A stretch of DNA of 64,000 nucleotides from Flavobacteriales bacterium (GTDB taxonomy: Bacteria > Bacteroidota > Bacteroidia > UBA10329): assembly GCA_021739695.1 (NCBI GenBank), contig JAIPBM010000010.1, forward strand, positions 62,001 to 126,000, read 5' to 3'. The translations under genes and the position numbers were made by a program. Positions 8,641 to 11,943 of the stretch are shown one piece after another. A model generated the notes under the pieces. That model was not told the origin of the DNA, did no database searches, and was given only the letters and a program-made list of their open reading frames with translations. Position 1 is the stretch's first letter, and the number at the start of each line of letters is the position of its first letter.

Positions 8641-9708
8641 ATGGCGTATATAGAACTCTACGGAGATAAACTTCGCCACAACTACCAATTTCTAGACACA
8701 CTTTTTAACCACCACGGCAAAGAATGGGCGGTGGTGACCAAGATGCTTTGCGGCAATCGCAAATACATCGAAGAGATCATTAAACTGGGCACCAAGGAGA
8801 TCTGTGATTCGCGCATCAGCAACCTGAAAGTGGTGAAGAGCATTGACCCTACGGTGCAGACGGTTTACATCAAGCCGCCCGCCAAGCGTAGCATCAGCAA
8901 AATTGTGAAGTATGCCGATGTGAGTTTCAACACGGAATTTGCCACCATCAAGATGCTTTCTGATGAAGCGGTGAATCAGAATAAGACGCACAAGATCATC
9001 ATCATGATAGAGATGGGCGATCTGCGCGAAGGCATTATGGGCGATCATCTGATGGATTTCTACGACAGCATTTTCAAACTGCCTAACATCAAGATATCAG
9101 GCATTGGCACCAACCTCAACTGCCTCAATGGCGTGCTGCCATCGCAAGACAAACTCATACAGCTAGGCTTGTACGAGCAGCTGATCGAGGCCAAATTCAA
9201 CATCAAGATACCATGGGTGACGGGCGGCACATCGGTCATCATTCCCATGCTGTTCAAGCATCAGGTGCCTGATGTGGTCAATCATTTCAGAGTGGGAGAG
9301 ACGCTCTTTTTCGGTGCTGATCTACTCAGCGAGGGCACCATCGAAGGAATGGAGGCAGATGTGATCAAGCTTTTTGCCGAGGTCATCGAGATCACCGAAA
9401 AGCCGAAAGTACCCATCGGTTCCTTGGCCCAGAATCCTTCGGGAGAGGTATTTACCGTAGATGAAAAGGACCTTGGAAAGAACATGCACCGCGCCATTCT
9501 CGACATCGGTCTGCTGGATGTTTCCACCGATTTTCTACTTCCGGATGATGATAGGATAAGCGTGGTAGGTGCCAGTTCAGACATGTTGGTGATCGACATA
9601 GGAGAAAGCGGCAACTACACTGTAGGCGACCTTGTTTCCTTCAAACTCAAATACATGGGGGCGCTTGCCCTGCTGAACTCAGATTATATTGAGAAACGGT
9701 TGGTGTAG
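8641..9708 (+). CDS. Alanine/ornithine racemase-family PLP enzyme
   Basis: 355 residues in the fold-type III (alanine racemase-like) PLP family. The N-terminal barrel carries the PLP lysine in WAVVTKMLCGN (about residue 33); IEMGDLREGI and VTGGTSVIIP are further barrel motifs, and the C-terminal beta domain starts near residue 240. It resembles the group annotated as alanine/ornithine racemase, which interconverts L- and D-amino acids; the exact substrate is uncertain. It is coupled to the GNAT gene. The last 55 bp of this gene are present again as decayed copies about 0.5 and 1.3 kb downstream. Confidence 0.85.
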   Translation: MAYIELYGDKLRHNYQFLDTLFNHHGKEWAVVTKMLCGNRKYIEEIIKLGTKEICDSRISNLKVVKSIDPTVQTVYIKPPAKRSISKIVKYADVSFNTEFATIKMLSDEAVNQNKTHKIIIMIEMGDLREGIMGDHLMDFYDSIFKLPNIKISGIGTNLNCLNGVLPSQDKLIQLGLYEQLIEAKFNIKIPWVTGGTSVIIPMLFKHQVPDVVNHFRVGETLFFGADLLSEGTIEGMEADVIKLFAEVIEITEKPKVPIGSLAQNPSGEVFTVDEKDLGKNMHRAILDIGLLDVSTDFLLPDDDRISVVGASSDMLVIDIGESGNYTVGDLVSFKLKYMGALALLNSDYIEKRLV

Positions 9709-9776
9709 GCTTTCGGACCTATCAAACACGCACCTGAGCGGGTTCAGTCTCTTTAAACGTAATTCAACGTGCGTTC

Positions 9777-10070
9777 GACTGTAGTTAAACTTCAATTGAC
9801 TGTATCCAACCTATCTTTAACTGTAATTGACTTAGCTCTAACTGTAGATAACTTAGCTTTAACCGTAGCTAACTTAGCTCTAACCGTATATAACTTAGCT
9901 TTAACCGTAGCTAACTTAGCTTTAACCGTAGCTAACTTAGCTTTAACCGTAGCTAACTTAGCTTTAACCGTAGTTAAGTTAGCTTTAACCGTAGTTAAGT
10001 TAGCCTAAACTGAAGATAAGTTAGCATAAACTGAAGTTAAGTTAGCATAAACTGAAGTTGGGTTAGGTAC
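9777..10070. repeat. 21-bp tandem repeat array (about 14 units)
   Basis: The stretch 9709-10226 has no convincing gene. It holds about 14 head-to-tail 21-bp units of the form AACCGTAGCTAACTTAGCTTT; three consecutive units (9903-9965) are identical and divergence rises toward both ends. Each central unit contains the palindrome GCTAA-C-TTAGC. Because 21 is a multiple of three, one frame stays open and would encode a repeated LALTVAN heptapeptide from a GTG at 9769, but the array continues past its stop with the same period, which argues for a DNA repeat and not a protein. Confidence 0.9.
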
Positions 10071-10150
10071 AAGCTGAATTTAAACTCCATTTAACTACGA
10101 TTGAAATGCGTTAAGATGGCTTTGCACTGGCACAACTCAATAGAGGTCAG

Positions 10151-10202
10151 TACATGGGCGCTTGGGTTACTGAGCTCAGATTATAGTGAGGTGGGGTTGG
10201 TG
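10151..10202 (+). pseudogene. Decayed duplicate of the racemase gene 3' end
   Basis: This stretch aligns with 9652-9706, the last codons of the racemase-like gene: TACATGG, then GCGCTTG, CTCAGATTATA and GGTTGGTG all recur in order, with a two-base deletion near the beginning and scattered substitutions. The deletion breaks the reading frame, so it is a relic. A third, weaker relic sharing TGAACTCA and TTATA-TGAG lies at about 11001-11026. The two relics bracket the two-gene minus-strand cassette. Confidence 0.7.
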
Positions 10203-10226
10203 CAATTGATATTGAGTCCCCTTTGG

Positions 10227-10532
10227 TTAATTATTCTTACCGAATATGTATCCTAACGCTAATGTCAATAGAGGAGTAGTGATACCCCAAAGTTCAAGAA
10301 TCGTTATTCCACATTTGGTTGGAGTTAGATTCATGATAAGTACTGTACACATTACACCAAACAGAAATATTAAAAAGATGAAGAGTCCAGCAATGTTGAT
10401 CTTGCCACTATCTCCTGACCCGAAAAAACGTCCAAGAACACCTAATTCTTTTGCGTGCTTTTCGCTTTCAAAAGTTTTTTCAACAACAGTTCGAGCCAAC
10501 TCTGGGTCGCTTGGCAACTTTAACTTATCCAT
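10227..10532 (-). CDS. Small two-pass membrane protein of unknown function
   Basis: 101 residues. A charged N-terminal helix (about 1-45, DKLKLPSDPELARTVVEKTF) is followed by two hydrophobic segments at about 47-70 and 78-97 and ends with the short tail FGKNN. I do not recognise the family. Its start lies inside the end of the upstream gene (8-bp overlap), which indicates translational coupling, so the two products probably work together. The position in an accessory patch between gene relics suggests a horizontally acquired cassette. Confidence 0.7.
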   Translation of the reverse strand: MDKLKLPSDPELARTVVEKTFESEKHAKELGVLGRFFGSGDSGKINIAGLFIFLIFLFGVMCTVLIMNLTPTKCGITILELWGITTPLLTLALGYIFGKNN

Positions 10533-10884
10533 TCTGTACCGTTTCTCCTAAATACCAAGTATAATGCACAGTCTTACCTACCGACTTGTCTGCAAGAGAG
10601 TAAATCCGATAGTTTAAAAAAAGTCTTCGTCCTTTTACCGTACCCAATTCTAAGGGCAGTGTATTTCCAATCCCGAGTGCTTCTTCAAAGTTTGTAAATT
10701 CTAATGTCATTTCATTTTCTTGACTGATTTCAGCACGGACTTGGTGGGCCTTCTGGTGCGAATCAATTTTAAACTTGAATACAATTCGTATTTTTTCGGT
10801 AATGTGAAAAGTGATTGGGTCAATACCATAACTGATGATTGTTCCGCTTTCAAAAATTTCAAGGTCTCCAGTTGTTATTCTCAT
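10525..10884 (-). CDS. Small soluble protein, partner of the membrane protein downstream
   Basis: 119 residues without signal peptide or membrane segment. The pattern is alternating polar/hydrophobic and looks like a beta-sandwich (TFHITEKIRIVFKFKI, then MTLEFTNFEEALGIGNT and RRLFLNYRIYSL). No catalytic motif is visible and I do not recognise the family. It overlaps the downstream two-pass membrane protein by 8 bp, so the pair forms a bicistronic unit reading toward the minisatellite. A sensor or ligand-binding domain paired with a membrane partner would fit, but this is a guess. Confidence 0.7.
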   Translation of the reverse strand: MRITTGDLEIFESGTIISYGIDPITFHITEKIRIVFKFKIDSHQKAHQVRAEISQENEMTLEFTNFEEALGIGNTLPLELGTVKGRRLFLNYRIYSLADKSVGKTVHYTWYLGETVQNG

Positions 10885-11211
10885 CTTGACAAAAGCCAGT
10901 TTGATTTAGTTTTTCAAAGTAAGCGAAAAGCTACAGGTTCGTTGCAAATCAAGGTGTGGTTTTTACTGTGTATTTAGCAAAGCCACACAAATCAAGCAAG
11001 TACTGGTGAACTCAACTTATAGTGAGAAGCGCTAGCTCTTCTCAAGTCGTATACACCGAATTGAACATTAAATGATCTGTAGCGAGGTTTGAGCCGTGAC
11101 CTTTGGCGTAGCTAGCCGCCATTCCTCATACCACAGAAATTCCACCTACCTTTACTCAACCAAAGCCGCCCGAATAATCTATATGCGGCAGAGTACGATT
11201 ACAATTCTATT
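10885..11211. other. Non-coding stretch with an inverted repeat and a gene-end relic
   Basis: No gene is visible in these 327 bp. The left part holds GGTGTGG (about 10952) and CCACAC (about 10983) in inverted orientation flanking the AT-rich segment of a possible hairpin, and AAATCAAG occurs twice. A short stretch at about 11001-11026 resembles the racemase 3' end. The right part should contain the promoter of the NYN gene, but no clear TAnnTTTG element is evident. Confidence 0.55.
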
Positions 11212-11943
11212 ATGACAAAAGACACTAAACTGGCCGTCCTTATCGATGGCGACAACATACCTAGTAAGTATATCAAGGAAATGATGGAGGAGATCACCAA
11301 GTACGGTACTCCCACCATCAAACGCATCTATGGCGATTGGACCAATCCGCGCCTAGGCAGATGGAAAGACATCTTGCTCGAAAACGCCATCACACCTATT
11401 CAGCAATACGGATATACCACTGGCAAGAATGCCACGGATAGCGCCATGATCATTGATGCCATGGACATTCTCTATTCAGACAAAGTGGATGGTTTTTGCC
11501 TCGTTTCGTCCGACAGCGATTTTACTAAGCTCGCCACACGACTTCGCGAAGCAGGAATGAACGTGTACGGAATAGGAGAGAAGAAGACCCCAAATCCCTT
11601 CATTGTAGCCTGCGATAAATTCATTTATCTCGAAATCCTTCATGAAGATGAGGAAGTGGAGGAGAAAGGCAAGAAGCGCAGACAGAAACGTCAGGTGGAT
11701 AAGATCACGCCAGAGGTTATCAAGCTTTTGAAAAGCTCGGTGGCCGATGCGGCCGAAGAAGATGGTTGGGCCTTTATGGGCGATGTGGGCAAACTCATTC
11801 TGAAGAAACAACCCAACTTCGATTCGCGGAACTTCGGTTTTGAGAAGTTGACACCGCTCTTCAGTTCACTCAAGCAGTTTGAAGTGGACGCCCGAACCCA
11901 GCCAGGTGCCAAGTTCAAAGTGATTCATGTGAAGAATAATTGA
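11212..11943 (+). CDS. NYN-domain putative ribonuclease with C-terminal LOTUS/OST-HTH domain
   Basis: 243 residues. The N-terminal NYN domain (LabA/DUF88-like, PIN-type fold) shows the expected acidic residues: VLIDGDNIP (about 8-16), DSAMIIDAMDIL (about 76) and CLVSSDSDFTKLATRLREAG (about 97). A basic linker (KGKKRRQKRQ) leads to a winged-helix OST-HTH/LOTUS domain (about 163-240), which in other proteins binds RNA. The combination suggests RNA binding and cleavage in the cytoplasm, but no substrate is known. It stands alone on the plus strand, 26 bp before a convergent gene; the gap holds an imperfect hairpin GAGCTATTA/TATTAGCTC. Confidence 0.88.
   Translation: MTKDTKLAVLIDGDNIPSKYIKEMMEEITKYGTPTIKRIYGDWTNPRLGRWKDILLENAITPIQQYGYTTGKNATDSAMIIDAMDILYSDKVDGFCLVSSDSDFTKLATRLREAGMNVYGIGEKKTPNPFIVACDKFIYLEILHEDEEVEEKGKKRRQKRQVDKITPEVIKLLKSSVADAAEEDGWAFMGDVGKLILKKQPNFDSRNFGFEKLTPLFSSLKQFEVDARTQPGAKFKVIHVKNN

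Follow-up and report, generated by a model that had tools for sequence, protein, structure and literature searches.

Decayed copies of a racemase gene end flank a two-gene cassette in a Flavobacteriales genome

Genomic islands can integrate at the 3' ends of genes and rebuild these ends. The locus that we describe here, downstream of a racemase gene, shares with such islands the order of gene end, cargo and copy of the gene end, but it differs from them in having no tyrosine-recombinase match on the contig, no defined att core and no recurrence at the ends of other racemase genes. It also resembles the effector-immunity displacement arrays of the Vibrio cholerae T6SS as they are described in the passages of PMC5361080 that deal with them: modules are placed behind a conserved 5' anchor without an integrase, and former 3' ends are shifted downstream together with the old cargo. 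The same passages propose homology-facilitated illegitimate recombination as the mechanism. In these arrays the modules follow a toxin gene that is subject to diversifying selection (PMC5361080, same passages), whereas the host gene of our locus is a racemase of housekeeping type whose product is unchanged, and its cargo is not a known immunity gene. The displacement of Rhs C-termini, as far as it is covered where PMC5361080 cites it, likewise leaves orphan 3' ends strung behind an intact gene, but an Rhs tip is a working toxin domain that comprises many residues, and the copies described here are stubs of 29-54 bp. Finally, there is a likeness to integron gene cassettes, because the gene pair of our locus lies beside attC-like sites in two other genomes, although the window (the whole stretch of 64,000 nucleotides that we analysed) is devoid of an attC-like site.

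The window lies on contig C10 of a genome of 4.24 Mb (G000), which its relatives and the named loci indicate to be of Bacteroidota type. The gene that bears the repeated end (8641-9708, plus strand) encodes an ornithine racemase-like (Orr-like) protein, matched by the Pfam profile Ala_racemase_N (1.4e-13) and by the NCBIfam profile racem_Orr with 322 bits, under the cut-off of 480 of that profile. It is preceded by a GNAT gene, and its stop codon occupies positions 9706-9708. Behind the stop codon we found, in this order, a minisatellite, a first copy of the racemase end, a two-gene cassette on the minus strand, a second copy of the racemase end, about 104 bp of spacer, and the flank of a gene encoding an NYN-domain/LOTUS protein (11212-11943, plus strand, identified by domain search), which is the downstream core neighbour. 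An earlier, sequence-only reading of this DNA had already placed the minisatellite between the gene and the first copy, and the two copies on either side of a two-gene cassette at 10227-10884. Both placements are confirmed by the TRF rows (9808-10066) and by the two minus-strand genes (10227-10532 and 10525-10884), which overlap by 8 bases. The minisatellite has a period of 21 bp and about 11 units, of which those in the middle are most alike and those at the edges have diverged. It contains near-palindromic TTAACYGTAGTTAA cores, and one frame per strand is open over most of its length. A repeat with a period of 21 bp is also found upstream of the DUF6864 gene in L069.

The last sense codons of the racemase gene (9652-9705, plus strand, delimited by repeat search and alignment) recur on the same strand at 10151-10202, with 42 identities in 54 columns and a single gap of 2 bases, the reading frame being lost (score 47). 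The recurrence had been noticed in the sequence-only reading for the last 55 bp (9652-9706), which we refine to the 54 bp that precede the stop codon. The best of 1000 dinucleotide shuffles scored 26, as did the best match of the gene end elsewhere in the window. The second copy (11003-11031, plus strand) is ungapped, with 24 of 29 bases identical to the gene (score 33, against a maximum of 27 in 1000 shuffles), and reads NSTYSEKR-stop in the frame of the gene. It had been described as a weaker match at about 11001-11026; it is real and shorter, but "weaker" is true for its length only, since within the shared 29 bp it agrees with the gene at more positions (24/29) than the first copy does (21/29). 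The two copies agree with each other at 20 of these 29 positions, so that the three values give no clear order of age. An independent repeat finder grouped all three places, with 79% and 64% identity over 47 bp. Searching the whole genome with the gene end retrieved the first copy (E 7e-5) and missed the second; the six further matches had an E-value of 3.17, which is the level of chance, and thus provided no other convincing copy.

The earlier reading had named an alignment no better than chance as the result that would speak against it. The matches are indeed short and decayed, but neither score was reached by any of the 1000 shuffles made for each copy, and among 338 gene ends sampled from the same genome only six scored at least 35, with the racemase in fourth place. 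The three ends that outrank it belong to a tandem pair of paralogous, sorted proteins that share their C-terminus, to a repetitive protein, and to what we read as an interspersed repeat. We therefore regard chance similarity as extremely improbable.

The first copy has no frame and the second is a stub of 29 bp, hence the copies are not live paralogues. They could still be the last remains of full racemase genes that once stood in tandem, and the genomes of the class do contain end repeats that come from decayed or paralogous tandem genes (a T9SS-type pair in L099, a pair in L126). Against this, a racemase was matched (E ≤ 1e-60) in 48 of 395 genomes of the class with one match in each, no racemase-like sequence was noticed ahead of the copies, and two independent deletions would each have had to leave nothing but the final 30-54 bp. 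The tandem origin is thus improbable. The similarity of the first copy ends at the last sense codon, with none behind it, and the 5' borders differ between the two copies.

The cassette encodes a protein of 119 aa of the DUF6864 family (10525-10884, minus strand, PF21732 with 1.1e-28), predicted to be all-beta, and a small putative membrane protein of 101 aa (10227-10532, minus strand), which was matched by no Pfam family. The AlphaFold2 model of the DUF6864 protein has nine strands and a mean pLDDT of 86, and searching this fold against the PDB returned nothing at E ≤ 0.001. PF21732 was found in six of 295 genomes of the class, G000 included (five of them above the cut-off), and was absent from the other eight genomes of the genus that we examined. 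Downstream of DUF6864, the window and five further genomes that were aligned encode a membrane-type protein of about 100 aa, whereas L084 does not. The pair occurs sporadically in Bacteroidota. We found no relative of DUF6864 in the plasmids, phages and viral contigs searched, no similar DNA in the plasmid search, neither protein in any PADLOC family, and no paper on DUF6864 in the literature search. All that can be said is that the cassette is a two-gene accessory module. The DNA between the cassette and the end of the second copy (10885-11031) matched 15 others of the 395 genomes searched, with E-values of 3e-4 to 0.009 per genome; these matches were short and scattered, and we took them as chance.

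In two of the genomes with this pair (G048 and a metagenome-assembled genome of Chitinophaga) it lies next to repeats of 130 bp, which we read as integron attC sites. We built an attC-like model (R1) from four sites recognised by eye. Searches of L067, L082 and L066 with Rfam yielded no match, and of two attC-like sites that were folded, one did better than all 200 shuffles and the other did not. The genome of the window itself contains five matches to the model, the best with 124 bits (C19:1498-1630, C19:2566-2698, C38:25260-25392, C38:3595-3703 and C23:66404-66535; L154-L158), and recombinases that match integron-integrase models with scores under the cut-offs, which indicates some relatedness. 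Contigs C38 and C19 carry recombinase matches too. An integron integrase (IntI) might thus have set the DUF6864 pair behind the racemase at a secondary site (attG). Yet the region 9500-11300 of the window has no attC-like site even with filters off (the best match, 6.5 bits with E 0.35, falls inside the minisatellite), the folds of both copies are no better than those of shuffles, and an insertion of this type would leave the gene end unduplicated. We consider this origin very improbable.

The comparison of nine genomes of the genus, including G000, provided the arrangement without the cassette. The gene order PGM-MAP-MTase-...-NYN is common to the congeners, but the slot between the MTase and NYN genes varies. 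It holds mscS, GNAT, the racemase and the cassette in the window, GNAT and the racemase in G002, nothing in G003 (where the contig starts inside the MTase gene), and other DNA in G004, including a relative of mscS with 44% identity. In G008 the racemase adjoins mscS and DJ-1 and the NYN gene is elsewhere; in the remaining four congeners we searched for the NYN gene and did not find it. The earlier reading had proposed to look for alternative cargo at this locus in related strains; the contents of the slot differ among the three congeners in which it was readable (G002, G003 and G004). In G002 only 81 bp separate the racemase stop codon from the start codon of the NYN gene, with a single racemase end and with neither minisatellite, cassette nor extra ends. 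These 81 bp do not align with the DNA that immediately follows the racemase in the window but with positions 11136-11210 (plus strand, 69 of 75 bases identical), beyond the distal copy, which identifies the latter stretch as the conserved native flank of the NYN gene. The flank restarts 104 bp past the most distal copy, and this spacer (11032-11135) had no match in G002 or elsewhere in the genome of the window. In total, 1427 bp lie between the stop codon and the conserved flank in the window and are absent in G002. They were probably inserted in the lineage of the window, a loss in G002 being less simple; as the empty arrangement is seen in this one congener (83% complete, 210 contigs, rounded values), a loss there is possible.

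A fresher and clearer parallel of this architecture was found in G060. The last 29 bp of a gene encoding a class III aminotransferase (PF00202, probably rocD), stop codon included, are repeated after 610 bp with 28 of 29 bases identical. The interval holds a small ORF of 76 aa and, downstream of it, a ParE_toxin gene (PF05016; L130:13630-14300 for the arrangement). The DNA behind the distal copy matches the flank of the same gene in G263 (61 of 75 bases, starting about 24 bases past the stop codon in both), whereas the intervening DNA matches this flank at 15 of 17 bases at best. Since the native flank of G263 follows the distal copy in G060, we identify this copy as the native end, now displaced. 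At a greater distance, G060 has a tyrosine-recombinase gene and an attC-like site arranged much as in an integron: on contig C18 (L130:11180-13505) a tyrosine-recombinase gene, a cassette-like gene and an attC-like site are co-oriented and face the end of the aminotransferase gene. In G128 an attC-like site (L128:3073-3205) lies directly behind the same aminotransferase gene.

We surveyed gene ends, starts and middles for repeats in 1.71 Mb of DNA, a non-random sample in which many stretches were chosen as lying downstream of racemase genes. At a score of at least 35 there were 18 hits for ends, 11 for starts and 8 for middles. When we kept only repeats that touched no ORF on either strand, had no more than two copies and were more than 100 bp away, they were left at six of 1364 ends, and at none of 1360 starts and 1364 middles. 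Three of the six are displaced ends by our reading, the locus that we started from included. We dropped the end of a gene of 579 aa on contig C3 of G000, which is an interspersed repeat, and two ORFs (261 aa in L126, 136 aa in L075) that run antisense to what is probably the real gene. In G028 (L166:7300-9129) an ORF of 117 aa and then a decayed copy of the toxin's own end come after an EndoU toxin gene (PF14436), an arrangement that corresponds to the pattern published for toxin arrays. Two adjacent genes in L099 (10328-16651, minus strand), with probable T9SS sorting ends, are nearly identical over a final 100 bp that includes bases past the stop codon. The literature search returned no fitting account of modules that duplicate a gene end.

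The earlier reading had suggested that the racemase end is an attachment site used by small modules. We first compared the ends of racemase genes with about 1.5 kb of downstream DNA at 31 loci, including the window, using a shuffle test (at L013, L014 and L033 the query was a wrong end, because the open frame overruns the homologous end). Among the 30 other loci, that of G275, whose protein is 72% identical, has a candidate decayed end at a distance of 573 bp downstream, and a lipoprotein-like ORF occupies the interval. Its score was reached by 5 of 1000 shuffles over 1.5 kb and is matched by random sequences over 18 kb, and it was the sole one at 35 among 99 AT-rich gene ends; we regard it as a weak possible second case. 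The next lowest values were those of L032 and L043 (4 of 100 shuffles each) and L038 (9 of 100). A longer survey covered 7.6-18.6 kb downstream of 23 other racemase loci, with L013 corrected by hand. At no locus was the score more than 3 above the maximum of 20 random sequences; G012 surpassed this maximum by 2, and G275 equalled it. A general attachment site at racemase ends is ruled against by the two surveys, and a standing one is not supported.

The main rival explanation is nevertheless that the 3' end of this racemase gene is, or was, the att site of a tyrosine or serine recombinase, into which two small non-autonomous modules were inserted, each of them restoring the gene end. The succession of end, cargo and end is the classic form of such events, direct repeats of 29-54 bp would suit them, and the near-perfect, sharply bounded repeat of 29 bp in G060 would fit a site-specific recombinase as well. 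The genome encodes ten matches to the tyrosine-recombinase profile PF00589 that could act in trans, but none of them is on contig C10; with the 23 negative racemase loci and no crossover site identified, this makes site-specific integration possible but doubtful. Of the earlier proposal that integration at the gene end rebuilds it, what stands is an insertion with older ends downstream, to which the empty arrangement of G002, the varying slot and G060 all point; the recurring attachment site does not.

With about even confidence, we interpret the 1427 bp as the scar of at least two homology-anchored insertions right behind the racemase that displaced older ends. Decayed 3' ends of the upstream gene are found downstream of the intact gene with foreign DNA between, which is a feature of displaced gene-end arrays; that the direction was gain here and not loss in G002, that there were two events, and their order and mechanism, we infer. 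Each incoming piece would have consisted of a racemase end with new DNA behind it. On one side it would have entered by homologous recombination, with the anchor inside the racemase gene or close to it, and on the other by an illegitimate join. The gene would thereby receive an intact end, while the older end would be shifted downstream with its trailing DNA and then drift as non-coding DNA. The minisatellite may have expanded by slippage afterwards. Homology-anchored insertion accounts for the 3' border at the stop codon, the differing 5' borders and the lack of a recombinase match on the contig: the homology of the first copy halts at the last sense codon, as expected from conserved coding and diverged intergenic DNA. 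The patterns of variable sites in the racemase genes of G000, G002 and G008 are uneven in one comparison (maximum chi-square, p 0.006) and not in the others (0.14 and 0.27), which lends weak support to recombination and is compatible with a weakly mosaic gene; uneven constraint could also produce them. The spacer of about 104 bp counts against homology-anchored insertion, as does the fact that we saw neither a donor nor a recombination joint. The locus is a readable scar of gene gain, and not a proven new integration system.

It is a more speculative and, in our judgement, rather unlikely extension that small two-gene modules, among them DUF6864 with its membrane protein and ParE-type pairs, insert time and again behind ordinary housekeeping genes of Bacteroidota, all in one common way in which the gene end is restored. 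In that case degenerate gene ends in intergenic DNA would record the turnover of modules far beyond toxin loci. The numbers in our survey are small, and it is readily extended. If ordinary gene ends retain stubs of earlier ends, such short degenerate repeats could serve to date or count gene gains in the absence of integrases or island borders.
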